Source: an uncultured Bacilli bacterium (GTDB lineage Bacteria; Bacillota_I; Bacilli_A; RFN20; CAG-631). From it: a stretch of 37,599 nt of DNA. Location: NCBI GenBank assembly GCA_947626825.1, contig CANQTM010000015.1, positions 1 through 37,599 on the forward strand, read 5' to 3'. The notes under the pieces were generated by a model that was given only the letters and a program-made list of their open reading frames with translations, ran no database searches and was not told the origin of the DNA. A program made the position numbers and the translations under genes. Positions 1-23,274 of this stretch are shown piece by piece (position 1 is the stretch's first letter; each line of letters starts with the position of its first letter).

Positions 1-152
1 CATGCCATTTTTACCCATTTTTTAACATAAAAGCCACTATTTTTTATTTATTTTTGCTTTCATGCGTAATTACTATTAATTTTTGTAAATTAAAAACACA
101 TTACAAATACAAACTTAATTAAAATTTTAACTTCAAAAATAAAATACAAAAA

Positions 153-395
153 CTATTTATTAAATAAAGCCATGGCAATTGCAAAACTTATTAATGACAA
201 AACAATACTTGAAAGGCAAAAAATAATTCCTTTTTCTATTTTTATATTGTCAACTTTATTGGCAATTTTATTTTCTTTATATGCTAAAACCAAAGTTGGA
301 ATAGCATAAATAAGCCCAAGTCCACCTATTAATGAAGTTATTAAACTAACAATACTAAAAATATAAACTTGATTGACCTGTGTTATCTTTGACAT
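153..395 (-). CDS. Small two-helix membrane protein, unknown function
   Basis: An 80-residue protein with two hydrophobic segments at about residues 12-38 and 56-78, separated by a short charged lysine/asparagine-rich loop. The arrangement resembles small DUF4190-like membrane proteins, but I cannot assign a family with confidence. I chose the ATG at 395 because an AGGGTG ribosome binding site lies just upstream; a longer frame opening with GTG at 404 would start inside that site. The gene follows ribF by about 40 bases on the same strand and has no promoter of its own that I can see, so it is probably the last gene of the truB-ribF transcript. No clear terminator follows it, and 1-152 holds only AT-rich sequence with no gene that I can see. 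Confidence 0.6.
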   Translation of the reverse strand: MSKITQVNQVYIFSIVSLITSLIGGLGLIYAIPTLVLAYKENKIANKVDNIKIEKGIIFCLSSIVLSLISFAIAMALFNK

Positions 396-435
396 TTTTA
401 TCACCCTAAAGTTATTTTTAGCAAATATTATCTTT

Positions 436-1338
436 TTATGAAAAAAGTTCTAATTTTTTTAAATCTTTTTGCAATTGCTTTTTTAAATAAATTAAAGATT
501 TAAATGTGTGTTCTTTACGATGATATTTTAAAAATTCAATTTCTATTATATGATTATATAAATTTTGATTAAAATTAAGTAAATGTGCTTCGATTTTTAA
601 TGTTTTATTATTATTTATAGTAGGATTGTAACCTACATTAATCATAGCTTTATATTTATTTTTATTAACATATGCATATCCAAAATATACACCATGTTTT
701 AATAAATAACATGAATTATATATCTTTAAATTAGCAGTTTTAAAATTAATTTTTTGACCATTTTGTAAACCTTTAATGATTCTTGATTTTAAAGAAAATG
801 GCCAATATAAAAGTTTATTTGCTTCTTTAATTGCTCCATTTAATAATAAATTGCGTATATATGATGAAGATATTTTATTATTTTTATAATAAACATCTTT
901 TATTTCAAATATTTTATATAAAGTATTTTCTTTAAAATAATTTATATTGCCCATTTTATTTTTGGCAAAAGAAAAATCGCTTCCTAAAACTAATCCTAAA
1001 CAATTTAATGGTTCAAGATATAATTTAACAAATTCATCAGGATTTAAATTTTGAAAATTATCTTTTATTTCTAATAATAATAAATAATCAATTTTTAAAG
1101 ATTTAAAAGCTTTTATTTTTTTATTTAAAGACATCAAACAATTAGTTAACTTCCACAAATTTAAAATGTCATTATCAAAAGAAATCACAACACTTTTAGC
1201 ATTGTAATATTTTGCTTTTTTAACTAAAACATTTAAAATTTTTTGATGTCCTTTATGAATGCCATCAAAAAATCCAATAGTAATAATGGTTTTATCATTG
1301 AAGTTCTTTAAGTCGTTGATATTTATAATCTTCATCAT
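436..1338 (-). CDS. ribF: Bifunctional riboflavin kinase / FAD synthetase RibF
   Basis: Cytoplasmic enzyme that phosphorylates riboflavin to FMN and adenylylates FMN to FAD. The N-terminal half is the nucleotidyltransferase domain, with GFFDGIHKGH at residues 22-31 carrying the HxGH-type ATP-binding signature. The C-terminal half is the riboflavin kinase domain, recognisable by NVGYNPT followed by the IEAHLL segment. The length of 300 residues is usual for the family. The start overlaps the end of truB by 44 bases, which suggests translational coupling. Two consecutive ATG codons follow an AGAGG site; the second (1335) has the better spacing, so the protein may start there. The truB-ribF order is common in Bacillota. 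Confidence 0.93.
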   Translation of the reverse strand: MMKIININDLKNFNDKTIITIGFFDGIHKGHQKILNVLVKKAKYYNAKSVVISFDNDILNLWKLTNCLMSLNKKIKAFKSLKIDYLLLLEIKDNFQNLNPDEFVKLYLEPLNCLGLVLGSDFSFAKNKMGNINYFKENTLYKIFEIKDVYYKNNKISSSYIRNLLLNGAIKEANKLLYWPFSLKSRIIKGLQNGQKINFKTANLKIYNSCYLLKHGVYFGYAYVNKNKYKAMINVGYNPTINNNKTLKIEAHLLNFNQNLYNHIIEIEFLKYHRKEHTFKSLIYLKKQLQKDLKKLELFS

Positions 1339-2185
1339 ATAAACCTCTTATACATTGATAAATTTTTTCTTCTTTTTTTTGATAAATTGCAATTGGTAAT
1401 TGGTTATCACATATTAATATATTTTCATCAATTTCATTTTTTAAAATTAATTTTTGTCCATTATATGTTCTTTTTAAAATACTATGATCATTTATAAATA
1501 ATTTTTTCATATTTAAAGCATCTTTAATATCAATTATTTTGATATTTTCATCTAATAAATCATCATAACTTTGAGCATCTTCAACTGATATATCACCAAT
1601 TTTAATACGTCTTAACATAGTTAAATATCCTAAATTATCAAGTTTATTTGCAATATCTACTCCAAGGGTCCTAATATATGTACCTTTAGAACATTTTACA
1701 TAAATCTTTAAACTATCATTTGTAAAATCAATTAAATTTAATTCATATATTTTGACTTTACGACTTGGAATAGTTACATTTTCATTATTTCTTGCATATT
1801 CATATAGATGTTTACCAGACACTTTGATAGCTGAAAAAACAGGTGGTATTTGTTCTATTTCTCCAATAAATGATTGTAAAACTTCTTCTATTTGTTTTTT
1901 ATTTATTTTATTAATGCTTTTTTCTTTTATAACATTTCCTTGATTATCAAAAGTATCAGTTAAAATTCCTAAAGTAATTGTAGCAATGTATTCTTTAGTT
2001 TCATTTTCTAAAAATGGTAATATTTTTGTAGCTTGATTAAGTCCAATAATTAATAAACCACTAGCAAAAGGATCAAGTGTTCCACAATGACCAACTTTAT
2101 TTGTATTAAATCTTTTCTTTATTAATTTAATTGCTTGATAACTGCTTACACCAATTTTTTTATCTACTAAAATAATGCCATCCAT
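1295..2185 (-). CDS. truB: tRNA pseudouridine-55 synthase TruB
   Basis: Isomerises U55 in the T-loop of tRNAs to pseudouridine. The N-terminus reads as the canonical catalytic domain: IILVDKKIGVSS, then the GTLDPFASGLL signature at about residues 35-45, with Asp38 as the expected catalytic residue. A further family motif, KCSKGTYIRTL, lies near residue 165. The length of 296 residues is normal. The start ATG is preceded by a GGTGG Shine-Dalgarno-like stretch. It is the first gene of a transcript with ribF, which it overlaps, and its promoter at 2208-2236 is nearly consensus. Confidence 0.95.
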   Translation of the reverse strand: MDGIILVDKKIGVSSYQAIKLIKKRFNTNKVGHCGTLDPFASGLLIIGLNQATKILPFLENETKEYIATITLGILTDTFDNQGNVIKEKSINKINKKQIEEVLQSFIGEIEQIPPVFSAIKVSGKHLYEYARNNENVTIPSRKVKIYELNLIDFTNDSLKIYVKCSKGTYIRTLGVDIANKLDNLGYLTMLRRIKIGDISVEDAQSYDDLLDENIKIIDIKDALNMKKLFINDHSILKRTYNGQKLILKNEIDENILICDNQLPIAIYQKKEEKIYQCIRGLYDEDYKYQRLKELQ

Positions 2186-2207
2186 TATGTCACCACCATC
2201 AATAAAT

Positions 2208-2236
2208 ATTCTACTTTAATTTTAAAAAAATGACAA
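2208..2236 (-). promoter_or_regulatory. Promoter of truB-ribF
   Basis: On the minus strand, TTGTCA is followed by a 17-base spacer and TAGAAT, about 22 bases upstream of the truB start. The -35 box lies inside the terminator hairpin of the upstream glycosyltransferase operon, so termination and initiation signals share sequence here. Assigned from the sequence match only. Confidence 0.6.
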
Positions 2237-2256
2237 TGAATTACTTCATTATCATT
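2224..2256 (-). terminator. Intrinsic terminator of the GT8/acyltransferase operon
   Basis: On the minus strand, a 12-bp stem (arms 2229-2240 and 2245-2256, one G-U pair, four-base loop) is followed by a run of seven T residues, nine bases after the stop codon of the fusion gene at 2265. Confidence 0.7.
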
Positions 2257-2264
2257 ATTAGTAA

Positions 2265-4028
2265 TTATTTTAAATAAGTTAATGGAATATTATATGTTTT
2301 TTCATAAACTTCTTTCCAAACTTCATAATTTTCTTGTAATAACATATTTGTGTTTTGGGCAATAGATTGCCCTTCTTTTGGATATATAGGTTTGGAAATA
2401 TTTATAGTATATTCTTGAACATAAAAACCATCAGGGCCTAATACATCAGAATCTTTCATTGTAATAAAACATGGCAATACAGGAACGTGATTTTTACTTG
2501 CAAAATTATAAGCACCTTTTTTTAATGGTTTTGGTTTACGATAGTTCCACCATAAACTTTGTTCAGGATAAACTAAAACCAAATGGCCATTTTGCAATAA
2601 AGTATCAACTGCTTTAATAAATTTTTTCATAGTTTCTGGATGTGATGATAATGGTAATGTATTACAATGTCTCATCAAAAAGCCATAAAAACCAGGAAAA
2701 GATGTATAATTACCTTCCCTTATTACTCGATAAAATGTTCGACCATTTTCTTTTTGTTTAGATGCTTCATAGGCAATTTGAATTGCAAAACTATCAAATG
2801 GATTAAAATGATTACAAGTTATAATGGCTCCAGAATCTAAATTTTTAAAATTTTCTAAACCTTTTATTTCTTTAATAATCATCATTTTTTCATCTAAAAG
2901 ATGGTTAACAAATTTTCTAGCCATATGATAAGCAAATTTTGTCTTTACGCGATTAGTAAAACCTTTTTTTAGATAATTAATATCATTTGGAAGTAAAACT
3001 TTTCCAGGTGGATCTTGCTCTAAATCTTGATCAAATTTACCTTCTTTTTCAAATTCATCCATCTTTTTTAAGATAGCAACACGATCTGACGAACGAGTCA
3101 CTTTATTTAATCTATTTAAATAATTATCATCTTTATTTGCTTCATTAACAGCCATTTTTAAAAGATTTTCCATAGTTTTTTGATCTTTTAATTTATTTTC
3201 ATCACTATAATTATTTAATTCATTTAATAATTCTTGATAAATGTTTGTATCTTTAGCATATTGCCAAAAAATATCATAGCCAAGACAATTATTATAATAC
3301 CAAGGTTTACTTACCATATTATAATGAACAATGTATGCTTCATCTATTGGAAATGGTATCTCACTAAATGTTTGGGCATTCCACCTTTGGTCATAAAAAT
3401 AAATGTGATCTTTGCAAATAACATTTAAATAATCTTCATCTTGAGCAACTACAAACTTATAAGTATGAAGTAATTGTATAAATTTATCTAAGATAAAATG
3501 TAAACGAAATTGTTCACAATTAATTACAATAATTCCTGCATTAAAAAAATTATATTTAGATATTCCATCACATTTTTCAACATAATTAGCAAAATCTTCT
3601 AATTGTAAAACAGCAAGTTCATTACAAGCACCTAAATAAGCATCTTTAATATCAATTTCATACAATTTACTAATATCACCTTGAACTATAGTATCACTAT
3701 CAATATAAATTGCTTTATTATATTCAGGAAACATTTCAGCAATAAATAAACGATAATAAGTAGTATTAGAATAATAATCTCTAATTGGGAACTTATCAGA
3801 TATTGAATTTAAATAATCAGTAACATCTTCAAAAGAAATTTCAAAATTTTCATTAGCCATAATTAATAATTTTTCTTTCATTTTTGAAGAAATATTTGTA
3901 TTTAAAATATAAACATGATATTTGTATTCTTTAGAAGCATTTTTAATCATTGAATATAATGATACTATTGTATATTTAACAAAATTATCATCACATGAAT
4001 AAAAAATAGGTATAACTTCTTTTCCCAT
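2265..4028 (-). CDS. GT8 glycosyltransferase - PlsC-type acyltransferase fusion
   Basis: A 587-residue two-domain protein. Residues 1-260 form a family 8 glycosyltransferase: an IPIFYSCDDN opening, the metal-binding DSD at 110-112, and the C-terminal HYNMVSKPW with His235. A charged, probably helical linker spans about 265-345. From about residue 353 a PlsC/LPLAT-type acyltransferase follows, with NHFNPFD (the HX4D motif, His407 and Asp412) and a later YPEQ block. The predicted role is sugar transfer plus acyl transfer to a glycolipid or lipid carrier at the inner membrane face; the substrates are unknown. I chose the ATG at 4028, which has a GGGGGA site ten bases upstream, rather than a TTG at 4049 that overlaps that site. 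It is the last gene of its operon and is followed by a terminator. Confidence 0.85.
   Translation of the reverse strand: MGKEVIPIFYSCDDNFVKYTIVSLYSMIKNASKEYKYHVYILNTNISSKMKEKLLIMANENFEISFEDVTDYLNSISDKFPIRDYYSNTTYYRLFIAEMFPEYNKAIYIDSDTIVQGDISKLYEIDIKDAYLGACNELAVLQLEDFANYVEKCDGISKYNFFNAGIIVINCEQFRLHFILDKFIQLLHTYKFVVAQDEDYLNVICKDHIYFYDQRWNAQTFSEIPFPIDEAYIVHYNMVSKPWYYNNCLGYDIFWQYAKDTNIYQELLNELNNYSDENKLKDQKTMENLLKMAVNEANKDDNYLNRLNKVTRSSDRVAILKKMDEFEKEGKFDQDLEQDPPGKVLLPNDINYLKKGFTNRVKTKFAYHMARKFVNHLLDEKMMIIKEIKGLENFKNLDSGAIITCNHFNPFDSFAIQIAYEASKQKENGRTFYRVIREGNYTSFPGFYGFLMRHCNTLPLSSHPETMKKFIKAVDTLLQNGHLVLVYPEQSLWWNYRKPKPLKKGAYNFASKNHVPVLPCFITMKDSDVLGPDGFYVQEYTINISKPIYPKEGQSIAQNTNMLLQENYEVWKEVYEKTYNIPLTYLK
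3901..4012. repeat. Near-identical DNA copy, 5' end of the fusion GT8 gene
   Basis: These 112 bases match 4980-5091 with about four differences by eye, in the same orientation and offset by 1079 bases. The similarity continues more weakly through the rest of the GT8 domains. It marks a tandem gene duplication with recent divergence or gene conversion at the 5' end. Confidence 0.85.
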
Positions 4029-4057
4029 AATAATTAAATCCCCCAACAAATTAATTT

Positions 4058-5110
4058 TTAATAATTTATATCATCAGTAAGTATCATTTTATTAGAAATT
4101 TTAGAATTTTGATTATTTTTTTCTTTTTTATATTCAATATTATTTTTCATAATATTAATATTTTCTGTTAATTGTTTTACTTTATTTAAACTATTCAAAT
4201 AATTATTTTTATTATTTGTTTCAGCAATTGCAAGTTTTAATAAATTGTCAGCAGATATTTGATCATTTTCTTTTTCTTTATCTGTATAACTATTTAAAAC
4301 ATCTAATATATCTTCATAAACATTTGTTTCTTCAGCATATTGCCAAAAAATATCCCCAAAACGACAATCTTGATAATGCCATGGTTTACTTACCATAATA
4401 TAATGGATAATATATGCATCTTTTATTGGATAAGGTATTTCACCAAATACTTCTGTATTCCACTTTTGATTTAACCATAAAACATGGTTCTTACATATTA
4501 CATTTAGATAATCTTCATCTTGTGTTACAACAAATTTATAAACTTGAAGTAATTTAATAAATTTTTCTAAAACTTTATGATCTCTAAATTGTTTGCAATT
4601 AATTAAAATCATTCCAGCATTGAAGAAACTATAACGTGATACTCCTACACACTTTTCAACATATGTGCCATATTCATTTACTTGAACCATAGCTTGTTCA
4701 TGACAAGCACCAACATAATAATCTTTTAAATCAATTTCATATAAATTACTAATATCACCTTGAACTATTGTATCGCTATCAATATAAATTGCCTTATTAT
4801 ATTGAGGAAACATTTCAGCAATAAATAAACGAAAATAAGTTGTTTTTGAATAATAATCTCTAATTGGAAACTTATCAGCTATAGAATGTAAATAGTTGGT
4901 AACATCTTCAAAAGAAATTTCAAAATTTTCATTTGCTAAAACCATTAACCTATCTTGCATTTCTTTTGTAATATTAGTATTTAAAATATAAACATGATAT
5001 TTATATTCTTTAGAAGCATTTTTAATCATTGAATGTAATGATACTATTGTATATTTAACAAAATTGTCATCACATGCATAAAAAATAGGTATTATTTGAT
5101 TAGTTTTCAT
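4058..5110 (-). CDS. GT8 family glycosyltransferase, truncated paralog of the fusion
   Basis: A 350-residue family 8 glycosyltransferase with DSD at 111-113 and a late HYIMVSKPW motif. It is very similar to the N-terminal half of the next gene (2265-4028), at DNA level near the 5' end and at protein level through the linker. It ends LTDDINY, while the paralog reads LPNDINY and continues directly into its acyltransferase domain. It therefore looks like a copy that lost, or never gained, the acyltransferase half at precisely that point. The start ATG has an AAGGAGA site and overlaps the stop of the upstream gene as ATGA, so the two are probably translationally coupled. The acceptor and sugar donor cannot be told from sequence. 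Confidence 0.87.
   Translation of the reverse strand: MKTNQIIPIFYACDDNFVKYTIVSLHSMIKNASKEYKYHVYILNTNITKEMQDRLMVLANENFEISFEDVTNYLHSIADKFPIRDYYSKTTYFRLFIAEMFPQYNKAIYIDSDTIVQGDISNLYEIDLKDYYVGACHEQAMVQVNEYGTYVEKCVGVSRYSFFNAGMILINCKQFRDHKVLEKFIKLLQVYKFVVTQDEDYLNVICKNHVLWLNQKWNTEVFGEIPYPIKDAYIIHYIMVSKPWHYQDCRFGDIFWQYAEETNVYEDILDVLNSYTDKEKENDQISADNLLKLAIAETNNKNNYLNSLNKVKQLTENINIMKNNIEYKKEKNNQNSKISNKMILTDDINY
4980..5091. repeat. Near-identical DNA copy, 5' end of the stand-alone GT8 gene
   Basis: Partner of 3901-4012: about four differences in 112 aligned bases, same orientation. Confidence 0.85.
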
Positions 5111-5946
5111 TTTTGTAAAATCTCCTTTTTAAATTTTTCTTTCAAATAAATATATTCATATAAAATATCATCAAATTGATAATATTTAAAGACTTTGTGA
5201 ACTTTGCTGACATGCCATTGTTTTATATTGTCAGTATGTGGATAAGGTAACCAAAACAATCTTTTAGAAAAATGTCTAATAATTGTCCAAGAGTGTAAAA
5301 ATTTTTGATCATTATATCTTTGAGGCAAAACTTTTCTTTTCGTAGTTGCTCTTATTAAAGCACTTTGATCTGCAAATAATAATTTTTTCTTCTTTAGCCA
5401 TTCTCGTGCTTTTTCAAAAATGTTTGTTTCTTTCATTTTTTCTAAATTAAATAAAAGCACTCCAGCATTGATATAATTTGGATTAATTAAATATTTACCA
5501 TAATGATCTCTTGCAGCTGCATATTCATAATCACTAATATCAATATCATAAATTAAACTAATATCTTTATTAAATAAAATATCAATATCTAAATATAATA
5601 TCTTATCTGGTAAGCCATCAATCTTATCAGCCAAGAGTCTTATTAAAGTATATGGTGATGTATAAGGATTTTTATTAGGTGTATTTGCAAAATATTCATT
5701 ATATAAATCAGTTACATCTATTTTAATAACTTCATTTTCTTGATTATATTCTTTAATGACTTTTCTAAAAAAATCTATTTGACAATCATTAATTGGTAGA
5801 TATTTTTTATCAAAATTGGAAAGATCCATTGTAAAAATATAAAATATTATTGGTTTAGATGTTTCTTGACGTTTAAAAATTGATAATGAACAAGTTAATA
5901 TTCCATCGAAAACCTTATCATTGCCACAAAACAAAACATTAATCAT
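5107..5946 (-). CDS. GT8 family glycosyltransferase, divergent member
   Basis: A 279-residue family 8 glycosyltransferase opening INVLFCGND, with the metal-binding DID at residues 120-122 inside ILYLDIDILF and a late WHVSK segment in place of the usual HxxxxKPW. It is clearly less related to the two downstream GT8 domains than they are to each other, so it may add a different sugar. I chose the ATG at 5946 because GGAGG sits nine bases upstream; a longer frame to 5988 lies wholly inside the preceding gene. It overlaps the upstream acyltransferase gene by eight bases and the downstream GT8 gene by four, so the operon is tightly coupled. Confidence 0.85.
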   Translation of the reverse strand: MINVLFCGNDKVFDGILTCSLSIFKRQETSKPIIFYIFTMDLSNFDKKYLPINDCQIDFFRKVIKEYNQENEVIKIDVTDLYNEYFANTPNKNPYTSPYTLIRLLADKIDGLPDKILYLDIDILFNKDISLIYDIDISDYEYAAARDHYGKYLINPNYINAGVLLFNLEKMKETNIFEKAREWLKKKKLLFADQSALIRATTKRKVLPQRYNDQKFLHSWTIIRHFSKRLFWLPYPHTDNIKQWHVSKVHKVFKYYQFDDILYEYIYLKEKFKKEILQK

Positions 5947-6727
5947 TATGGATTTCCTCCGATTTAATATACTTAATCCATTCAACATTTGAATTCAAAC
6001 TACGATTTCTCATACAATTATATATACGATCACGCAAATCTTTTTTTCTTAAATTCAATGGTAAATCATTATTTGGATAAAAAGGACCATCAATATAAGT
6101 AACAATTTTAGGCTTAGATGAATGTTTCCTTTTTTGATAAGTATTAGTGAAACAAAAACTAGGAACATTATATGTTATTGGATAATGGAATGACTTATCA
6201 ACAAATGGTCTTATTTTAGTATAAAATGGCCAAATATGAGCTTCAGGATAAATCACAACAACTTGATTTTTTTTAATTTTATTACTAATTGCTTTTAAAA
6301 AATTTTTATAAGCTAACGTATCATCTGGAAGAGGTAAAGCTCCCATTGATGATGTTACTTTTCCAAGAATTGGCATTGAAACATTATTAGCATGAACAAT
6401 GACATAACTTCTTTTGGGATAACTTAATATATTTGGAATAAAAGCATCAGCAATATCCTGAGTATGATTTCCATAAATGAAATATGAATTTTTTTTAAAC
6501 TCCTTTAAAAATTGCTTATTAATTATTTTGTGATGAAAAACAATTTTTGTATATAAATATGCAATAGGAGCAGCTACAATACGATACCAAAAAAACGATG
6601 TGAATTTTTTAAATAATGATGTGTGTTCATATTTATATGAACCATCGATTTTTTTGGGAGTTATTTTAGCAGTTGAAAATTCATCATTTAATTCATCAGA
6701 ATAACAAATAATTTTTCTTTTTTCCAT
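5939..6727 (-). CDS. PlsC-type acyltransferase, first gene of the GT8 operon
   Basis: A 262-residue LPLAT-superfamily acyltransferase, expected to move an acyl chain onto a phospholipid or glycolipid precursor at the membrane. YGNHTQDIAD at 86-94 is block I, and IYPEAHIWPFY at 159-169 is block III with Glu162. The catalytic spacing is unusual: His88 is followed by Asp94 (HX5D) rather than HX4D, with Asp91 as an alternative. From memory, a Bacillota subfamily with an NHTQ opening has this spacing, so I do not read it as inactive. A hydrophobic segment lies near residues 45-65. It is the promoter-proximal gene of the four-gene operon, and a perfect palindrome overlaps its promoter. Confidence 0.8.
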   Translation of the reverse strand: MEKRKIICYSDELNDEFSTAKITPKKIDGSYKYEHTSLFKKFTSFFWYRIVAAPIAYLYTKIVFHHKIINKQFLKEFKKNSYFIYGNHTQDIADAFIPNILSYPKRSYVIVHANNVSMPILGKVTSSMGALPLPDDTLAYKNFLKAISNKIKKNQVVVIYPEAHIWPFYTKIRPFVDKSFHYPITYNVPSFCFTNTYQKRKHSSKPKIVTYIDGPFYPNNDLPLNLRKKDLRDRIYNCMRNRSLNSNVEWIKYIKSEEIHND

Positions 6728-6743
6728 AACAACTTACCTTCAT

Positions 6744-6760
6744 CGGACATTATATGTCCG
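6744..6760. promoter_or_regulatory. Palindromic operator over the -10 box of the GT8 operon
   Basis: Perfect inverted repeat CGGACAT-TAT-ATGTCCG, 17 bp, starting 17 bases upstream of the acyltransferase start codon. On the minus strand it contains a perfect TATAAT. A palindrome covering the -10 box is typical of repressor operators, for example those of the TetR family. No regulator gene lies nearby, so the cognate protein, if any, is encoded elsewhere. Confidence 0.65.
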
Positions 6761-6775
6761 CTACCATATTATCAA
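6749..6775 (-). promoter_or_regulatory. Probable promoter of the acyltransferase-GT8 operon
   Basis: TATAAT at 6749-6754 on the minus strand, with TTGATA at 6770-6775 as the nearest -35-like hexamer. The spacer is only 15 bases, shorter than optimal, so the -35 assignment is uncertain. The -10 lies inside the palindrome. Confidence 0.5.
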
Positions 6776-6835
6776 ATTAATCAAAATAAAATCAATCTAT
6801 TTCATTTATATATCAGTCTACACTTTATAATTTGT

Positions 6836-6873
6836 TAGTAGAGTTATTAAAAATATGCTCTACTATTAGTAGA
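6836..6873. repeat. Triple TAGTAGA half-site cluster in a divergent intergenic region
   Basis: TAGTAGA occurs at 6836-6842 and 6867-6873 and in inverted orientation at 6859-6865. The last two form a perfect 15-bp palindrome (7-1-7), and the first pairs with the second over eight bases (TAGTAGAG / CTCTACTA). It lies about 95 bases upstream of the cysteine-rich protein gene and may be a regulator binding site or an mRNA leader hairpin. Confidence 0.45.
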
Positions 6874-6967
6874 ATTACCAATTTTTCTCAATAAATATGG
6901 GCATTTATAATGTCATTTTTTAATTTATGTGCATATTGTTTAATGTAGTAAAAAGGAAGGTGAAAAT

Positions 6968-7429
6968 TTGTATAACTGTAATTGCAATAATGGATGTAAT
7001 GCAAATTCATGTCCAAATGTTACTTTAACTTTACAAGCAAATGCTACAACTCTTGCTCCGTGCAATCTAATAACATATACTTGCACTATCACAAATGAAG
7101 ACCCTAATGTTACATATGGTGTATTTAAAGAAAATATGCCTTCACCTATCGTTTTCCTTCCTGGTACTGTAACAATTAATGGTCAAAATTATCCAACTTT
7201 AAATCCTACAAATGGTTTTAATGTAAACTTCTTAACAATGGGAAATACAATTACTATTACTTATATGGGTAAGGCTTATGGTGATAGTTGCTGCTGCGTT
7301 AAAGTTACAACATGTGATTGTTGTCGTAACTATAGACCAGTAAACAATTATGCAACATTATGTTATAAACAATGTTGTTGTAATAAAGTTGCTACATCTA
7401 ATGATGTCATAGTTCAGGTAGAGTACTAA
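6968..7429 (+). CDS. Cysteine-rich DUF11-like protein, possible spore-coat/surface component
   Basis: A 153-residue protein with 16 cysteines, clustered at the N-terminus (CNCNNGC) and in the C-terminal third (CCC, CDCC, CCC). Between them, about residues 17-102 resemble a DUF11-type beta-sandwich repeat (LTLQANATTLAP, then a PGTVTINGQ strand pair). There is no signal peptide or membrane segment. Cysteine-rich proteins without export signals are typical of cross-linked spore-coat or exosporium layers, and this genome carries other sporulation genes; that role is inference. The start is TTG, chosen because AGGAAGGTG lies just upstream and no ATG fits. A strong bidirectional terminator follows. 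Confidence 0.7.
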   Translation: MYNCNCNNGCNANSCPNVTLTLQANATTLAPCNLITYTCTITNEDPNVTYGVFKENMPSPIVFLPGTVTINGQNYPTLNPTNGFNVNFLTMGNTITITYMGKAYGDSCCCVKVTTCDCCRNYRPVNNYATLCYKQCCCNKVATSNDVIVQVEY

Positions 7430-7440
7430 ATAAAGCTACA

Positions 7441-7479
7441 AAAAAATACTTTCATAGATTTTTGATGAAAGTATTTTTT
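7441..7479. terminator. Bidirectional terminator between the cysteine-rich gene and copA
   Basis: Perfect 15-bp stem (7441-7455 with 7465-7479) and nine-base loop. The A-rich and T-rich ends allow it to act on both converging transcripts. Confidence 0.9.
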
Positions 7480-7488
7480 AATGTTTTA

Positions 7489-7689
7489 TTATGCCTTATA
7501 ACCAGCTTTATTTATTGCTTGTTTGATGGCATCTACATCAATTTCAGTTTCATATGAGATAGTAACATTTTTATCATTTACTGAAGCTTTAGCATCAACA
7601 ACATTTTTTATTGTTTTGCATGCTTCTTCAACATGCATTTTGCAATGATCACACATCATGCCTTCAACACTTATAGTCAATGTTTTCAT
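7489..7689 (-). CDS. copZ: Nested CopZ-like copper chaperone, internal in-frame start in copA
   Basis: The last 66 codons of copA form a complete HMA domain that begins MKTLTISVEGMMCDHC and ends at the shared stop codon. The internal ATG at 7689 is preceded by AAAGGAG with six bases of spacing, an excellent ribosome binding site for this genome. A stand-alone copper chaperone is therefore probably made from within copA. CopZ proteins of about 65-70 residues deliver Cu(I) to CopA and exchange it with CsoR-type sensors. Whether the fused form, the free form or both exist cannot be decided from sequence; a homopolymer error that hides a normal copA stop is a real alternative. Confidence 0.6.
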   Translation of the reverse strand: MKTLTISVEGMMCDHCKMHVEEACKTIKNVVDAKASVNDKNVTISYETEIDVDAIKQAINKAGYKA

Positions 7690-9981
7690 TTTTTTCTCCT
7701 TTCCTTTTTTTACTTTAAATAAATTTATTGTCAAAGCATTTAAGACAACTGATACACTAGATATACTCATAGCCAAAGATCCTAACATTGGATTAATTTT
7801 GAAACCATTAATATAATAAAATAAACCAGTTGCTATTATTACACAAATAAAATTATAAAAGAAAGCCCAAAATAGATTCACTTTAATTGTTAATAATGTT
7901 CTTTTACTTAAACTTATAACATTTAATACATCCATTAAATCATTTCTAAGCAAAATAATATCTGATGAATCAATGGCTACATCACTGCCATTCCCAACAG
8001 AAATACCTAAATCAGCTGATGTAAGTGCTAAAGCATCATTAACACCATCACCAACCATTGCTACTAAATTTTTTTGATCTATCTTTAATGATTCTATTAT
8101 TTTTTGTTTATCAATTGGCTTTACATTAGCAATTACTTTAGATAGTCCTACTTCATTTGCAATGGCATTAGCTGTTACTTCATTATCCCCTGTTATCATA
8201 ACAACATTAATTCCTAATTTTTTTAAATTCAAGATTGCTTCTTTAGAACTTTCTTTAACATTATCTTTAATAGCAATCAAACCAACCAATTCATTATTTT
8301 TTAAAATAACTAATGGCGTTTTGCCTTCATGTGCTAAATCGTTAATTTTATTTTCTATATTATTTGATATTTTATTTTTAACTAAATTATAATTTCCAAT
8401 ATAATAATTATCATTTAAAATAGTGCCTTGAATACCAAGTGATTCTAAAATTTCATAATCATCAACATCATAAAGATTAGCATTTTTTTCTTTAGCATAA
8501 TTAATTATAGAAAGTGCCAAAGGATGTTTAGATCTATTCTCAAGAGTAAATATTTTTGATAATAAGTCATTATCATTACTATAATTGATAAAATCTGTTA
8601 CTTTAGGATTTCCTTCAGTAATTGTTCCTGTTTTATCTAAACAAACAACTTTAATTAAATGAGCCTTTTCTAATATCTCAGCATTTTTAATAAGTAAACC
8701 ATTTTCTGCACCTTTACCAGTACCCACCATTATAGCTACAGGAGTTGCAAGTCCTAAAGCACAAGGACAAGCAATAACAATAACAGTAATTGCAAAATTA
8801 AATGAAAGTTCAAAATTTTTATTAATTAATATATTAATAATAAATGTTAAAATTGCAATTACAAATATTACTGGAACAAAAATTCCTGAAATTCTATCAG
8901 CAAGTTTTGAAATTGGTGCTTTTGAATTACTTGCTTCTTCAACTAATTTTATTATGGTTGCAATACTACTATCTTCATTTGATTTACTAACTTTAACTTT
9001 AATATATCCTGCACTAATAATGCAAGAAGCATAAACTTCATCATTTTCTTTTTTATAAACAGGAATTGATTCTCCTGTAATGTTTGATTGATTTATTGAA
9101 GCACTTCCTTCAACAATAATTCCATCAAGAGGAATACTATCACCATTTTTACAAATAATAATATCACCTACATTGACATTTTCAACTAAAGTTTCTACTT
9201 CAATATTGTTTTTTAAAACCATGGCCTTTTTAGGTGCTAAATCCATTAATTTAGTTATAGAATTTGTTGTTTTCTTTTTTGATAAATTCTCTAAATATTT
9301 TCCTAATGAAACTAAAGTTAAAATCATGGCAGATGATTCAAAATATAAATTATCATGATATGTCATAATAATATTTTGATAATAATCAATATCATTTGTT
9401 CCATTTACAATTTTACTTGCAGCAAAACTCATCATAAAAATAGCAAAGATTCCATAAAGCAATGAAAAACTTGAACCAATAGCGATTAATGAATCCATAT
9501 TTGGTTGACCTTTAAATAATTTTTTATATCCATTAATAAAATAATGTTGATACATAAAAATTATTGGCAATGTTAAAATTAATTGAATAAAGGCAAAACC
9601 TAATGGATTTTCTTTATGGTCTAAAAATGGGAACACTTTAAAATTCCACATCATATTTCCCATTGAAAAATACATTATAACTAGTAACAATATAAAACTA
9701 ATTACTAATTTTACTAATGAATAATCTTTTTTATTATTTAAATTTTCATTTGATCTTGTTACCTTTTTATCTTTATAGATTGCTTGATAACCAGCTTTAC
9801 TAACAGATTGTAAAATATTATCTATGCTACATATTCTTTCATCAAATTCAACAATCATATTATTAGATAATAAATTGACATTAACACCTTTAACACCATC
9901 TAACGACCTAACTGCCTTATCAACATGACTTTGACATGAAGCACAACTCATTCCTAAAACATCAAATTTTGCTTTCATCAT
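7489..9981 (-). CDS. copA: Copper-exporting P1B-type ATPase CopA with C-terminal CopZ-like domain
   Basis: An 830-residue membrane ATPase that exports Cu(I). An N-terminal metal-binding domain carries CASC at residues 13-16. Transmembrane segments lie at about 90-110, 128-148, 165-188, 215-230, 366-386 and 393-412, with another pair near 700-745. The TGE phosphatase motif is at 302-304, the CPC ion-binding motif at 405-407 and the phosphorylated Asp449 in DKTGT. Unusually, a second metal-binding domain (MCDHC) is fused at the C-terminus from residue 765, after a lysine-rich linker that encodes a ribosome binding site. Shortening the seven-A run just before that linker by one base would end CopA at a TGA overlapping the CopZ ATG. 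It forms an operon with csoR, whose TGA overlaps its start. Confidence 0.95.
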   Translation of the reverse strand: MMKAKFDVLGMSCASCQSHVDKAVRSLDGVKGVNVNLLSNNMIVEFDERICSIDNILQSVSKAGYQAIYKDKKVTRSNENLNNKKDYSLVKLVISFILLLVIMYFSMGNMMWNFKVFPFLDHKENPLGFAFIQLILTLPIIFMYQHYFINGYKKLFKGQPNMDSLIAIGSSFSLLYGIFAIFMMSFAASKIVNGTNDIDYYQNIIMTYHDNLYFESSAMILTLVSLGKYLENLSKKKTTNSITKLMDLAPKKAMVLKNNIEVETLVENVNVGDIIICKNGDSIPLDGIIVEGSASINQSNITGESIPVYKKENDEVYASCIISAGYIKVKVSKSNEDSSIATIIKLVEEASNSKAPISKLADRISGIFVPVIFVIAILTFIINILINKNFELSFNFAITVIVIACPCALGLATPVAIMVGTGKGAENGLLIKNAEILEKAHLIKVVCLDKTGTITEGNPKVTDFINYSNDNDLLSKIFTLENRSKHPLALSIINYAKEKNANLYDVDDYEILESLGIQGTILNDNYYIGNYNLVKNKISNNIENKINDLAHEGKTPLVILKNNELVGLIAIKDNVKESSKEAILNLKKLGINVVMITGDNEVTANAIANEVGLSKVIANVKPIDKQKIIESLKIDQKNLVAMVGDGVNDALALTSADLGISVGNGSDVAIDSSDIILLRNDLMDVLNVISLSKRTLLTIKVNLFWAFFYNFICVIIATGLFYYINGFKINPMLGSLAMSISSVSVVLNALTINLFKVKKGKEKKMKTLTISVEGMMCDHCKMHVEEACKTIKNVVDAKASVNDKNVTISYETEIDVDAIKQAINKAGYKA

Positions 9982-10271
9982 TGAAACCTCTTAAATAGAT
10001 CAACAATTTCATCTACTATTTTATCATTACCATTTTTAATGTTTTCTATTAAACATGAATGCATATGATCATCTAAAATTACATTTGCTAAACTTTTAAT
10101 TGATTTATCAATAGCTGCCAGTTGGATTAAAATATCATCGCAATAACGATTATTTTCAATCATCTTTTTTATTCCTGTTGTTTGACCTATTATTCTATTA
10201 ATACGATTAATTAATATTTTCTTATTATTATCATCTCGTAATTTTGTTTTATGATTATTTTCACATGACAT
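9978..10271 (-). CDS. csoR: Copper-sensing transcriptional repressor CsoR
   Basis: A 97-residue all-helical CsoR/RcnR-family repressor that releases DNA when it binds Cu(I). The copper ligands match the family pattern exactly: Cys44, His69 and Cys73, with the 25- and 29-residue offsets of classical CsoR (Cys36, His61, Cys65). It is the first gene of the csoR-copA operon and its stop overlaps the copA start. A GC-containing inverted repeat lies in the spacer of its promoter, so it most likely represses its own operon. Confidence 0.93.
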   Translation of the reverse strand: MSCENNHKTKLRDDNNKKILINRINRIIGQTTGIKKMIENNRYCDDILIQLAAIDKSIKSLANVILDDHMHSCLIENIKNGNDKIVDEIVDLFKRFQ

Positions 10272-10294
10272 ATCATCACTTCCATTTCAAAATT

Positions 10295-10323
10295 ATTATA
10301 TACCTAGTAGGGGTATATGTAAA
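10295..10323 (-). promoter_or_regulatory. csoR-copA promoter with CsoR operator in its spacer
   Basis: On the minus strand, TTTACA, a 17-base spacer and TATAAT. The spacer and its edges hold the inverted repeat ATATACC-N7-GGTATAT (10298-10318), with a run of C/G bases that stands out in this AT-rich DNA and resembles CsoR sites. Binding there would block RNA polymerase. Confidence 0.8.
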
Positions 10324-10327
10324 GTAC

Positions 10328-10356
10328 AAAAAAAATGCATGTATCAAATACACACA
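10328..10356 (-). terminator. Terminator of the DUF3737-malY operon
   Basis: On the minus strand, an imperfect 9-bp stem (10336-10344 with 10348-10356, wobble or mismatched pairs near its base) spans the malY stop codon and is followed by eight T residues. Confidence 0.55.
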
Positions 10357-11513
10357 TTAATTTTTTTTATAGCTTTATTTAATCTATTTAAACCATCTAA
10401 TAAAGTTTTTTTGCTACAAGCAATATTCATTCTTAAAAAATATTGTCCAGGATTACCATATTCAAGACCACTACATAAATATAAACCTGTTTCTTTTTTA
10501 ATAAAATTTTGTAATTTATTGGCATCAATTTTCAATGATGAACAATCAAGCCATAATAAATAAGTAGCATATGATTTTACACATTTAATTTGAGGAATGT
10601 TTTTTAATAAATATTCATTTACAATTCTATAATTATTATCAATATAGGCATTTAATTGCTCTAACCAATCTTCACATTCATTAAAAGCAGTTATTGTAGA
10701 AATTATTGCGAAAGCATTTGGTTCAGCTATTTCATCATTATTAAGTCCACGATTAACTCTTAAATACAAATCATTATTAGGAATACATACTGCCGCACTT
10801 TGCATTCCTGCAAGATTAAAGGCCTTACTTGCAGATAAACATGTAATACTATTTTCTAAATTTGTTTTTGAAACACTAGCAAATGGAACATATTCATAAT
10901 TTTTTCTTGTAATATCACAATGAATTTCATCAGAAAGTACAACAACATTATATTTTTTGCATAATTGACCAACTTTATCTAATTCATCTTTTGAATATAT
11001 TTTACCAACAGGATTATGTGGATTACATAAAATAAATAAACGAACTTGAGGATCTTTTAGTTTTTCTTCTAAATCTTTAAAATCAATTTGATAACTATTA
11101 CCATCATAAATTAAAGGATTTTCAGCAACATAACGTCCATTATTTATAATAGAATTAAAAAAGATATTATAAACTGGTGTTTGAATTAATACTTTTTCAG
11201 CAGGCAAAGTTAAACGTCTAACAACACTTGAAATGGCAGCAACTACACCACTTACAAAAATAAGCCACTCTTTTTCCATTTTAAAATGATGTCTTCTATC
11301 CCACCAATTAATATAACTTTCATACCAAGCTTGTGGAACAATTGAATAACCAAATATTCCATGTTCAACTCTTTTTTCTAATTGCTTGATAATTTTTGGA
11401 GCCGTTTTAAAATCCATATCTGCAACCCACATTGGTAATATATTTTCTGCAACATCATATTTATAAGAAAAAGTATTTTTTCGATTAATTATTTTATCAA
11501 AATCATATTTCAT
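10344..11513 (-). CDS. MalY/PatB-type cystathionine beta-lyase (PLP enzyme)
   Basis: A 389-residue fold-type I PLP-dependent C-S lyase / aminotransferase. The N-terminal NILPMWVADMDF is diagnostic for the MalY/PatB group. NPHNPVG is at 164-170, DEIH at 195-198, and the PLP-binding lysine is Lys230 in SASKAFNLAG. The likely reaction is cleavage of cystathionine or cysteine to pyruvate, ammonia and a thiol; some members also bind regulators. Its start overlaps the stop of the DUF3737 gene as ATGA, so the two are co-translated, a pairing that from memory recurs in Bacillota. Confidence 0.9.
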   Translation of the reverse strand: MKYDFDKIINRKNTFSYKYDVAENILPMWVADMDFKTAPKIIKQLEKRVEHGIFGYSIVPQAWYESYINWWDRRHHFKMEKEWLIFVSGVVAAISSVVRRLTLPAEKVLIQTPVYNIFFNSIINNGRYVAENPLIYDGNSYQIDFKDLEEKLKDPQVRLFILCNPHNPVGKIYSKDELDKVGQLCKKYNVVVLSDEIHCDITRKNYEYVPFASVSKTNLENSITCLSASKAFNLAGMQSAAVCIPNNDLYLRVNRGLNNDEIAEPNAFAIISTITAFNECEDWLEQLNAYIDNNYRIVNEYLLKNIPQIKCVKSYATYLLWLDCSSLKIDANKLQNFIKKETGLYLCSGLEYGNPGQYFLRMNIACSKKTLLDGLNRLNKAIKKINVCI

Positions 11514-12355
11514 TTTTTTTCATCCTTACAAATTATTATTGTTTTACTTGGATCAATTTTATCATTTTCTAAAATTAATTTATCAATGTGTTTAGCAACT
11601 ATTTTACCTTCTTTAGGATTAATAACACTATCAATTGAACTATCAATGTCAACATCTAATGTTGAATATTCAAAACATAATGTTGTATTAATCAATTTAC
11701 AATTTATCATTTTTAAATTATTTATATAACATAATCCTTGCAAACTTTCTAATGTACAATTAACAAATGTAATATTTTTACTATTCCATCCTATATATTC
11801 ACCTTGAATATAACTATCATATACTATGACATCTTCACAATTCCAAAAAGCATCTTTTGATATTAATTTAGCATTTCTAATTTCTAAATTTTTACAACCA
11901 TCAAATGGATAATTACCATCAATTATCAAATCTTTAGCCTTAATAAAACTTGAATTTAAACCAAAATAATCACCTTTAATTGTAACATTATCTATTGAAA
12001 CATTATTACAATGCCATAATGTTTCTGAAGCATTATTAATTGTAATATGATTTAAGGTTATGTTTTGGCAACGACGAAAAGTTTTTGGAGCATCGATAAT
12101 AGTATTTTGCAAAATAATGTCTTTTGTATACCAAATTCCAGCTCTTGCATGAATTGTTAATGCTGAGTCATAAACATTAATTTGATTACAATACCATAAT
12201 GGATATTTCCAATCAAAAGTACAATTATATAATGTGATATTTTTACTTTCTTTTAAAGGTGATTCACCATCAGTAAATGTAACATTTTTTATAAGTAAAT
12301 CATTTGACGTAAATAAGGCCCTTTCACCTGTAAATGTTTTATTTTCAATTATCAT
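11510..12355 (-). CDS. DUF3737 beta-helix protein
   Basis: A 281-residue protein made of short repeated strands (ITLYNCTFDW, ITLNHITINN, VSIDNVTIKG, ITFVNCTLES), as expected of a right-handed parallel beta-helix. The repeats match the DUF3737 family as I know it. It has no signal peptide and no recognisable catalytic site, and its function is unknown. The ATG has a GGAG site upstream. It ends in TGA overlapping the start of the PLP-enzyme gene, which suggests a shared pathway, and it has its own sigma-A promoter. Confidence 0.8.
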   Translation of the reverse strand: MIIENKTFTGERALFTSNDLLIKNVTFTDGESPLKESKNITLYNCTFDWKYPLWYCNQINVYDSALTIHARAGIWYTKDIILQNTIIDAPKTFRRCQNITLNHITINNASETLWHCNNVSIDNVTIKGDYFGLNSSFIKAKDLIIDGNYPFDGCKNLEIRNAKLISKDAFWNCEDVIVYDSYIQGEYIGWNSKNITFVNCTLESLQGLCYINNLKMINCKLINTTLCFEYSTLDVDIDSSIDSVINPKEGKIVAKHIDKLILENDKIDPSKTIIICKDEKK

Positions 12356-14525: not shown

Positions 14526-14549
14526 AAAAAATGTCATATGACATTTTTT
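14526..14549. terminator. Bidirectional terminator between converging genes
   Basis: A perfect 24-bp palindrome centred on ATGTCATATGACAT with A/T tracts on both sides. It lies between the glycosidase-like gene and the end of the thioesterase gene and can serve both transcripts. Confidence 0.75.
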
Positions 14550-15270
14550 ATTTTTTTAATTCAATTTTACATATAAAAACAGTATCTGTATTTTTTAATG
14601 CCTTTATATGGTATATATTATCTTCTTTATAATAATAAAGATTTAAAACATCATCTAAATAACATTCATGAACAAATTCTATTTGAAATTTATCAATTAT
14701 TTCATCTTCTTTTAATTTTATAGCATTCAATATATAATTTGTATATTTAGCATTATTTGCATGACCATTATGATCTATATCACAAAATTGTACTTTAGTT
14801 GTATATTTTTGACAATTATTAATTTCAAAATCTGGCAATTTGGTAAATGGTTCATTAAAATTAGTTTCATCTAAACATTGACCTTTAAATTCAATATGTT
14901 TTGCAGGAATGATTTTTCTAGTATTAACATCAACAATGACCCATTTTGATATAGCATTAACAACAATATCACCATTTTCATCTAAAATTTGAGTCTCTCT
15001 ATCAAAATCAACTAAGCCTTTATTTTTAGGCCAAGTTACGACTTTTAATTTAGCAAATAAAGGTATTTGTTTTAATACTTTATATTTAATGCGAACTAAA
15101 ACCCAAATTTGATTTTTAACAATCAAATCACCATATGCCATGCCAAAAGTAGTACTATGTTTTCCAGCAATATCTTGTAAAACATCTAAAACGCCGTATG
15201 GAGAAAATTGATCATAGCATGTATAATCTACAATTTTTAAACGATAATTATCACTAAATTTCGTCTTCAT
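14548..15270 (-). CDS. Acyl-ACP thioesterase (FatA/FatB-like double hotdog)
   Basis: A 240-residue protein with two tandem hotdog folds: the first around DYTCYDQFSPYGVLDVLQDIAG, the second around CDIDHNGHANNAKYTNYI with the Asp/Asn/His residues typical of acyl-ACP thioesterases. It is expected to release fatty acids from acyl carrier protein in the cytoplasm. I chose the ATG at 15270 (AGAGG upstream); a longer frame to 15321 lies inside the preceding gene. It overlaps the Sel1-repeat gene by 17 bases, so the two are co-translated. Why a Sel1 protein is paired with it is unclear. Confidence 0.85.
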   Translation of the reverse strand: MKTKFSDNYRLKIVDYTCYDQFSPYGVLDVLQDIAGKHSTTFGMAYGDLIVKNQIWVLVRIKYKVLKQIPLFAKLKVVTWPKNKGLVDFDRETQILDENGDIVVNAISKWVIVDVNTRKIIPAKHIEFKGQCLDETNFNEPFTKLPDFEINNCQKYTTKVQFCDIDHNGHANNAKYTNYILNAIKLKEDEIIDKFQIEFVHECYLDDVLNLYYYKEDNIYHIKALKNTDTVFICKIELKK

Positions 15271-16042
15271 CTTGACTAATCCTCTTATATTTTCCAAACA
15301 TTGATTTCTTATATTTTTCAAGAGGTTCTTTTGCTTTCTCTAAGCCAGATTTTAATGCTTTATCATACCAATAGCCAGCTTTATTATAATCTTGTTCAAC
15401 GCCAAATCCTCTTTCATAACAACTTGCTAGTGAAAACATTGCTTCAGGATAATTTTGCATTGCCGAACGTTGATACCAAAAAAATGCCATTTCTTCAAAT
15501 ACAGGGATTCCAAGACCAAATTCATAACATCTTCCCAAACTATATTGACCAAGTGGATATTTTTTCTTGCAAGTTTCTTGATACCAACAAAATGCCTTGT
15601 TATAATCTCTTTTTACACCTGATCCATCAGCATAACAAATGGCAGTATTATATTGTGCTTCAAGAAGTCCTTGTTCAGCTGCTTTTTTAAACCATATAAA
15701 AGCTTTAGAAAAATCTTTTTTTATTCCATCACCTAAATAATATAACATTGCCAAATTATATTGAGCTAATGCAACATTATTTTCTGCTGCTTGTTGGAAA
15801 CATTCTATTGCTTTATTTTGATTTTTTTGACAACCATAGCCATTTTTATAACAAACTCCTAACATAAACATGGCCATATAATTATTTTGTTTAGCAGCTT
15901 TATCAAACCAATATATGGCTCTAGCATAATCTTGTTTACTACCATTAAAGCCTTTAAAACTATATTGCCCCATTTCATATTGTGCATCAGCATCGCCACT
16001 ATTTGCTTCTTTTATTAATAATTTAAAACTATTTTCTGCCAT
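15254..16042 (-). CDS. Sel1-like repeat protein
   Basis: A 262-residue soluble protein made almost entirely of six 36-residue Sel1-type (TPR-like) repeats, each with the A-x-Y-x-L-G/A...G-x-G-x-x-x-D-x-x-K-A-x-x-W-x pattern. Such solenoids mediate protein-protein contacts; no partner can be named. I chose the ATG at 16042, with AAGGTG upstream, over a longer frame to 16090 that begins inside the promoter. Its promoter at 16062-16090 is close to consensus. The acidic C-terminal tail overlaps the start of the thioesterase gene. Confidence 0.9.
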   Translation of the reverse strand: MAENSFKLLIKEANSGDADAQYEMGQYSFKGFNGSKQDYARAIYWFDKAAKQNNYMAMFMLGVCYKNGYGCQKNQNKAIECFQQAAENNVALAQYNLAMLYYLGDGIKKDFSKAFIWFKKAAEQGLLEAQYNTAICYADGSGVKRDYNKAFCWYQETCKKKYPLGQYSLGRCYEFGLGIPVFEEMAFFWYQRSAMQNYPEAMFSLASCYERGFGVEQDYNKAGYWYDKALKSGLEKAKEPLEKYKKSMFGKYKRISQDEDEI

Positions 16043-22701: not shown

Positions 22702-23274
22702 TTATGATTGAGGCATTTTTTCTAAAAGTTCTTCTTCAAATTCATCAAAATCATCATCTATAACTGGAACCCAACTTTTTGAAAATTCTGCATCTTTAAA
22801 TAATGATGTTAATCCAGTAATTTGTTTTAAACGTAATATTTCATCTTTATCCATTCCAAGATGTTTGCTTATCCATTCATCACTTCGACCTAAATCATGT
22901 AGTTCTTTAACAATGTTACTCATTAAATCAACATCATGGCTACCTCGTGCTCGATTATGACGAATTGTTGATGCCATTCTTTGATCTAGTGGTTTATTGA
23001 TTATTGATACTGGTAACATACCATTTTCTCTTTCATATATATCTTTATATTCAAGCATGACACGATATCTATGAAAACCATCAACAATAATATATTTATC
23101 ATTATCTTTATCATAATAACAAACAATTGGCATAGTGTAGCCATCTTCTTTAATACTATCATATAATAGTTTCATTTCAGGAGGTGCAACATTATTTGGG
23201 TTGTAATCATTTGGAAGCACCTTATTGATTGGTACTCTTATTATTTTATATACAGGACTTTCTTTATTATTCAT
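22702..23274 (-). CDS. ibrB: ParB/Srx-fold protein, IbrB-like
   Basis: A 190-residue protein with a ParB N-terminal-type domain: the opening IIRVPINKVLPNDYNPN, the VDGFHRYRVM motif near residue 70 and RHNRARG near 110, followed by a helical domain with a WISKHLGMDKDEILRL helix-turn-helix-like stretch. Its pairing with the upstream PAPS-reductase-like gene identifies it as IbrB-like. In Escherichia coli, IbrA and IbrB together activate prophage-borne genes for immunoglobulin-binding proteins; the biochemistry is not settled. The start overlaps the end of the ibrA-like gene by eight bases, and GGAGG precedes it. No phage genes are nearby. Confidence 0.78.
   Translation of the reverse strand: MNNKESPVYKIIRVPINKVLPNDYNPNNVAPPEMKLLYDSIKEDGYTMPIVCYYDKDNDKYIIVDGFHRYRVMLEYKDIYERENGMLPVSIINKPLDQRMASTIRHNRARGSHDVDLMSNIVKELHDLGRSDEWISKHLGMDKDEILRLKQITGLTSLFKDAEFSKSWVPVIDDDFDEFEEELLEKMPQS

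Follow-up and report, generated by a model that had tools for sequence, protein, structure and literature searches.

A GT8/PlsC gene set recurring in gut and rumen Firmicutes is a candidate pathway to an acylated glycolipid

The window analysed here, a stretch of 37,599 nucleotides from an uncultured Bacilli bacterium, carries four tightly packed minus-strand genes at 2265-6727: Q (a PlsC-like acyltransferase), C and B (both GT8) and A~P (a GT8~PlsC fusion). Judged from its sequence, this gene set probably serves the biosynthesis of an O-acylated glycolipid. More tentatively, we advance the fuller reading that it represents an undescribed, horizontally spread pathway of gut and rumen Firmicutes to a multiply acylated glycosyl lipid, in which the bifunctional GT8~PlsC protein would both add and acylate a sugar, C plus Q or CrtO would act as interchangeable finishing modules, and some hosts would have their own acyl-ACP supply. 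Little is known of the glycolipids that uncultured Firmicutes of the gut and rumen make and, to our knowledge, most of the genes for sugar-acylated glycolipids in this phylum have yet to be assigned. The gene set predicts a bifunctional enzyme and is tied to a known sugar acyltransferase family, and GT8~PlsC beside Q and C provides a searchable genetic marker. Acylated glycolipids are a class seen by host immune receptors, and carriage of the set may therefore matter for host interaction. We found no family model naming the gene set and no open-access paper assigning it or its glycolipid, an absence that is weak evidence; the original prediction, too, named no described pathway of this composition.

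All four ORFs are present in the sequence (Table 1). Pfam searches matched PF01501 (GT8) in three of them (E 3.7e-41 for the fusion, 7.8e-47, and the value listed for C) and PF01553 (Acyltransferase) in Q and in fusion residues 395-529 (E 3.2e-12). The stop of Q overlaps the start of C by 8 nt, C overlaps B by 4 nt (ATGA), and a GGAGG ribosome binding site precedes the C start ATG at 5946. B is separated from the fusion ATG (4025) by 32 nt; this start was preferred over the TTG because GGGGG precedes it. Both the family assignments and the compact operon first proposed for this locus are thus borne out.

Table 1. Coordinates of the gene set and flanking features in the window.
Feature	Position	Strand	Description
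Q	5939..6727	-	PlsC-like acyltransferase; PF01553 E 1.1e-6; 42-member alignment; AF2 model and fold matches
C	5107..5946	-	GT8 glycosyltransferase, best-conserved member of the set; PF01501 E 1.4e-17
B	4058..5110	-	GT8 on its own; arose by lineage-specific duplication of the GT8 half of A~P
A~P	2265..4025	-	GT8~PlsC fusion, 586 aa; alternative start TTG 4049
GT8 half of A~P	3096..4025	-	Residues 1-310, LgtC/WbbM-like
PlsC half of A~P	2268..3059	-	Residues 323-586; H406-X4-D411; YPEQSLWWNYRKPKP block
Intrinsic-terminator-like hairpin and U-tract	2224..2256	-	Downstream of last gene
Perfect palindrome CGGACAT-ATA-ATGTCCG	6744..6760	none	Just upstream of Q

The fusion protein has the hallmarks of both families. 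Its GT8 half contains a PF01501 domain with the DxD metal site, and its P half a PF01553 domain with the H(X)4D motif of the PlsC/LPLAT superfamily. In an alignment of the window's A~P with 75 other fusions, the catalytic residues are near-invariant in both halves (GT8 D109xD111, H234 and K240; PlsC H406, D411 and E488), with D109xD111 at least 97% conserved. The AF2 model of A~P is of high confidence (pLDDT 92.8, pTM 0.86). Phylogenetic trees require at least two changes of the fused state in the P tree and at least three in the A tree, so A has been joined to or split from P more than once. As A and P are joined in a single unit, P would probably acylate the sugar that A adds.

Q is a divergent member of the PlsC/LPLAT superfamily. 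It has the PF01553 domain and the superfamily fold, with H-X5-D (N87 H88 ... D94) in place of H(X)4D in 42 of the 42 aligned members, together with a YPEAHIWP block and an invariant Glu at block 3 (E162). The AF2 model of Q (pLDDT 90.3) finds its best PDB folds in PlsC (5kym) and PatA, the phosphatidylinositol mannoside (PIM) acyltransferase of Mycobacterium. PIM glycosyltransferases are not known to be GT8 enzymes, and PatA differs further in having no glycosyltransferase fusion, in its sugar, acceptor and taxon, and in an identity of 7-10% to Q over the fold match. It is nonetheless a PlsC-superfamily enzyme acylating the sugar of a membrane glycolipid, namely the mannose of PIM, and PatA, HtrB and MsbB are said to depend on an acidic residue at block 3 (PMC4792965), the position of E162 in Q.

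PlsC-family membership alone does not dictate the acceptor, and a lysophospholipid could be what P or Q acylates. A broader form of this argument, that both are ordinary phospholipid acyltransferases merely co-transcribed with unrelated GT8 genes, draws on the generic nature of the PF01553 and weak TIGR00530 matches, and on one genome (G012) where a further PlsC and a DAG-kinase-like gene come after the set. We consider it very unlikely. The TIGR00530 model (1-acylglycerol-3-phosphate acyltransferase) gives 30.8 bits against a curated cut-off of 102.95, and PEQ/PEA is found instead of the PEG motif of that enzyme. A PExxxW..RP block takes the place of PEGTRS in both P and Q, P is fused to a GT8, and CrtO is mutually exclusive with Q and C (see below). 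Moreover, the window's genome has six other PlsC-family genes, one of which (on contig 32, which also bears the single 4'-phosphopantetheinyl transferase) has the canonical NHxSxxD and FPEGTRS motifs.

Gene order is well conserved. Among the best 80 relatives, mostly Clostridia MAGs, Q-C-A~P occurs in one order in 74 loci, which removes the concern, raised with the original prediction, that the neighbours might not be conserved. The set recurs in many gut and rumen Firmicutes, and remoter Bacilli and Clostridia relatives keep all four genes, unfused and reordered. The predicted alternation of sugar and acyl transfer therefore holds as a description of gene order in the window and no further, the order being shuffled in distant relatives.

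The same comparison sets B apart. B is 64% identical to fusion residues 9-361, ending in ..DDINY where the fusion runs on; it is the sister of the fusion's GT8 half in the tree (support 98/95), and it is missing at the equivalent place in a genome of the same genus (G001). B is thus a recent, lineage-specific duplicate, and the conserved unit in these sequences is Q, C, A and P. Synteny and tree together led us to reject a conserved four-gene unit that includes B, and the three GT8 domains originally put forward are not a general feature of the pathway. Near-invariant columns are altered at 8 of 83 positions in the fusion's GT8 versus 2 in B (Fisher p 0.10), which is only a hint that the fusion's GT8 may have changed role after duplication.

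C is 61-74% identical to its counterparts in three other genomes, and relatives of C at other loci are fused to ABC-2 exporter ATPases. LgtC and WbbM, the closest solved structures to the GT8 half of A~P, share its fold and DxD site; unlike A~P, they are without an acyltransferase domain and act on lipooligosaccharide or O-antigen. These exporter fusions and substrates would fit a product of larger size, an acylated lipoglycan or a polysaccharide of the surface, for which the GT8s would assemble an oligosaccharide on a carrier, either polyprenyl or lipid. However, the syntenic loci have no polymerase or additional sugar genes in common and only two GT8 activities recur, making such a product quite unlikely.

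Several associations point instead to an O-acylated glycolipid, an acylated glycolipid having been suggested originally. Acyl-activation genes adjoin the set in some distant relatives: an AMP-ligase, ACP and PPTase (L169), a ligase and PPTase (L166-L168), or ligases and ACP (L175). The Q and P genes are grouped with glycosyltransferase genes, and the AF2 model and fold search relate Q to PatA. The PExxxW..RP block also occurs in PlsC proteins that accompany other glycosyltransferases, as a GT2~PlsC fusion (L051) or beside a GT28 (L054, L055). In L215 and L218 the set has flippase-like PF03706 proteins as neighbours.

Where Q and C are missing, A/P has a CrtO-family gene beside it, matching PF18927 at E 3.3e-15 to 3.7e-22 in the loci scanned. 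Across loci that are related and not independent events, 95 have Q and C, 10 have CrtO only, 8 have neither and none has both. CrtO acylates the sugar of the staphyloxanthin precursor, and CrtQ is not known to be a GT8 enzyme. The CrtQ/CrtO pair resembles the present set in combining a glycosyltransferase with a sugar acyltransferase to yield an acylated glycolipid, although CrtO, a small protein of the membrane, has no relation to PlsC and the acceptor is an apocarotenoid. CrtO acts on glycosyl-4,4'-diaponeurosporenoate to give staphyloxanthin (PMC12924280). By analogy, the acceptor of the present set might be another hydrophobic alcohol or acid rather than a glycerolipid, as the CrtO-family partner in ten loci would suggest. 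We regard this as the least likely of the readings weighed here, as no carotenoid genes were noticed by eye among the neighbours of those ten loci and none of the window's four proteins matches PF18927.

For the acylated glycolipid, we propose that A and C (and B, as a duplicate of A) would act as retaining enzymes that move hexoses from nucleotide sugars onto a lipid acceptor in the membrane, in the simplest case (hexosyl-)diacylglycerol. Using acyl-ACP or acyl-CoA as donor, P and Q would next place fatty acids on hydroxyls of the sugars so added, with A and P acting as a first unit and C and Q as a second; the acceptor, sugar identity, acyl positions and reaction order are all putative. A MGDG-synthase-type GT28 in the window's genome (57% to its G002 counterpart) could supply the hexosyl-DAG. 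AMP-binding enzymes (PF00501) were absent from this genome, leaving no acyl-activation ligase, so the acyl donor in this host is putative. The product type has a parallel in the acylated glucolipids of Acholeplasma (MAMGlcDAG, MADGlcDAG), glycosyl-DAGs with an extra sugar-bound fatty acid; the glucosyltransferases for these are GT4, and no gene is known to be assigned to the sugar acyltransferase.

Alternatively, the acylated glycosyl-DAG might be a lipid anchor, the starter that an LtaS-like enzyme extends into a polymer resembling lipoteichoic acid or decorated with phosphoglycerol. The recurrent neighbours of the 80 loci are an LtaS-like and a P-type-ATPase-like gene, the others being shadow ORFs antisense to Q/C or an ABC ATPase. 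At about 13 Ruminococcus/Lachnospiraceae loci, a PF00884 LtaS/phosphoglycerol-transferase-like gene (about 680 aa) adjoins the set, co-directional with gaps of about 7-20 nt in L110, L117, L118 and L119 and convergent in L080, L081, L088, L093, L102 and L123. The LtaS pathway likewise uses a glycolipid anchor, although the anchors known for it come from GT28 or GT4 enzymes and not from GT8~PlsC. PF00884 matches are absent from the window's genome (95% complete; E 0.001, controls positive), from G001, G055, G344 and G104, and from the set-carrying Clostridia genomes G559, G562, G567, G568 and G573. The window's genome also lacks DltA, having no AMP-binding enzyme. Anchor synthesis as the purpose of the set is therefore unlikely, and for this host the classical lipoteichoic acid route was set aside as unlikely, neither PF00884 nor PF00501 having a match. 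Given the LtaS-like gene beside the set in some Clostridia, the product may there also be a phosphoglycerol acceptor, and lipid anchoring could be one of its uses in some hosts.

A known RNA element was rejected, no Rfam match being found in 1-12000. The palindrome upstream of Q is missing from the corresponding region of G001, and a palindrome regulon was rejected, there being one genomic copy only with up to two mismatches allowed. A promoter-like TTGATT-16-GATAAT site lies at 6795-6768. The idea of a dedicated promoter was not supported, such sites being no commoner than chance (80 versus 76.7 in shuffles). The predicted terminator, by contrast, was supported by a hairpin, AATGATAATGAA-GTAA-TTCATTGTCATT, with a U-tract directly 3' of the last gene (dG -12.3, z -3.2, equalled by 0 of 200 shuffles).

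The original prediction placed a candidate acyl-glycolipid operon with its own promoter and terminator in this window. Every domain claimed for its genes, which overlap or are narrowly spaced, was borne out by Pfam; NCBIfam holds no model naming any of them, all matches lying far under cut-offs. The terminator is supported by a hairpin with a U-tract 3' of the last gene (dG -12.3, z -3.2), between that gene and truB. The dedicated promoter is not supported, promoter-like sites occurring at chance level. A perfect palindrome, CGGACAT-ATA-ATGTCCG, separates the first gene from a promoter-like site and is single-copy in this genome. A small cysteine-rich DUF11-type protein gene diverges from the operon and is kept at the same place in the nearest relative, the same-genus genome G001 (78%).

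Coordinates of the operon and other features (window positions unless a locus is named)
Feature	Position	Strand	Description
Operon	6727 down to 2265	minus	four genes: Q, C, B, A~P
Q		minus	PlsC-like; Pfam domain match
C		minus	GT8; Pfam domain match
B		minus	GT8; Pfam domain match
A~P		minus	GT8~PlsC fusion; Pfam match for each domain
Palindrome	6744-6760		upstream of Q
DUF11-type gene	6968-7429		divergent from operon
Thioesterase gene	14548-15321		acyl-ACP thioesterase
ParB-like gene pair	22702-24601		with PAPS-reductase-like gene
GT2~PlsC	L051 2-1612		fusion gene in genome G010
PF04018~PlsC	L053 5112-6788		fusion gene on contig 2 of the window's genome
GT8_C-like with ABC-2 ATPase	L146 541-2322		fusion gene
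LtaS-like genes	L110 6829; L117 6879; L118 6838; L119 3884		PF00884

The equivalent site in G001, framed by the divergent DUF11 gene upstream and truB and ribF downstream, lacks B but has Q, C and the fusion; G012, from another family of the same order, carries the same three genes at a different genomic place. With the P half as query, a scan of named genomes yielded at least 574 relatives, and the best 80 were examined for gene order. Nearly all of these 80 belong to MAGs of Clostridia (Ruminococcus, Lachnospiraceae, Oscillospiraceae), for which herbivore gut and rumen are frequent sources. The neighbours are conserved, with Q, C, A and P in this order and on one strand in 74/80 loci; A~P stands without Q and C in four, and contig ends cut two. 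Matches at E 1e-60 or better were found in 13/392 genomes sampled from the window's phylum and 17/391 from a Clostridia-type class, and the gene set is therefore widespread but patchy.

In distant Bacilli and Clostridia the same four genes are unfused, in the orders C-A-P-Q, Q-C-A-P and A-Q-C-P, and changes between fused and unfused states number at least two in the P tree and at least three in the A tree. Because one GT8 and one PlsC have repeatedly fused or split, Rosetta-stone reasoning points to a single molecule as the shared target of A and P. The predicted A~P structure is confident (pLDDT 92.8, pTM 0.86), WbbM and LgtC being the best solved structural neighbours of its GT8 half. An analogous GT2~PlsC fusion occurs at L051; in PlsC proteins paired with GT2 (fused, L051) or GT28 (adjacent, L054 and L055), a PExxxW..RP block, which P and Q share, replaces PEGTRS.

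All three predicted GT8 domains are present, but B is no part of the conserved set. It is 64% identical to fusion residues 1-361 and ends at DDINY, where the fusion continues into its PlsC half. The GT8 tree places B as sister of the fusion from the window itself (support 98/95), and B is thus the product of a tandem duplication later than the split from G001. B and the fusion both nest among sequences of Clostridia, which suggests horizontal transfer. The fusion's GT8 half has a longer branch than B (0.36 vs 0.20) and more altered near-invariant columns (8/83 vs 2/83, p 0.10), a hint that B may retain the ancestral role.

Our best reading of the observed genes, residues, conservation and associations is that the set makes an acylated glycolipid, in which A and C would hexosylate and P and Q would carry out O-acylation; we infer the acceptor, sugar, acyl positions and reaction order. 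The main rival, in hosts with an LtaS-like gene beside the set, is a product used as an anchor by an LtaS-like enzyme: in some Clostridia such a gene lies directly downstream of the fusion in the same direction, but PF00884 is wholly absent from the window's genome (95% complete) and several other carriers. The set falls within a known type of pathway, in which glycosyltransferase and acyltransferase together make a glycolipid, and its combination of enzymes is new; no name for the set was found among family models, solved structures or papers (open-access text, so that an earlier description may exist elsewhere).

H-X5-D is present in 42/42 aligned Q members. The predicted Q fold resembles PlsC and PatA, which acylates a mannose of PIM (PMC4792965). 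PatA, HtrB and MsbB are said to use an acidic block-3 residue replacing the Asp of HX4D (PMC4792965), and Q has an invariant Glu in this block.

Genes for acyl supply accompany the set in some loci. At L169, Q-P-A-C adjoins an acyl-AMP ligase, ACP and PPTase; in L166, L167 and L168 a ligase and a PPTase lie upstream of C-A-P, and Q is adjacent; at L175, two ligases, two PlsC-like genes and one ACP come after C-A-P-Q. The window's genome (95% complete) contains no AMP-binding enzyme, and one 4'-phosphopantetheinyl transferase. In ten loci that have P (and A) and lack C and Q, a gene of the CrtO family is present; CrtO itself converts glycosyl-4,4'-diaponeurosporenoate to staphyloxanthin (PMC12924280). 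Across 113 loci, Q+C occurs in 95, CrtO in 10, neither in 8 and both in 0 (Fisher p 7e-10, overstated because the loci are related and some are counted twice). In L215 and L218, a gene next to C encodes a flippase-like PF03706 protein. At L146, L147, L156, L162 and L164, an ABC-2-type exporter ATPase is fused to a GT8_C-like domain and the permease gene adjoins; this makes a candidate for an exporter coupled to glycosylation.

The window, contig 15, belongs to a 1.84 Mb genome with four GT8 and eight PlsC-family matches. Its MGDG-synthase-type GT28, 57% identical to the PlsC-adjacent GT28 of genome G002, is a possible source of hexosyl-DAG. The G001 relative of the window's thioesterase sits two genes upstream of the Q-C-A~P operon. 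At L053, a DUF368/undecaprenyl-phosphate-translocase-like domain is fused to PlsC, and a DAG-kinase-like gene and a further PlsC come next; together these may form a lipid flipping-acylation unit. Elsewhere in the window, a ParB-like gene lies beside a PAPS-reductase-like gene, a pattern we take to be IbrA/IbrB-like.
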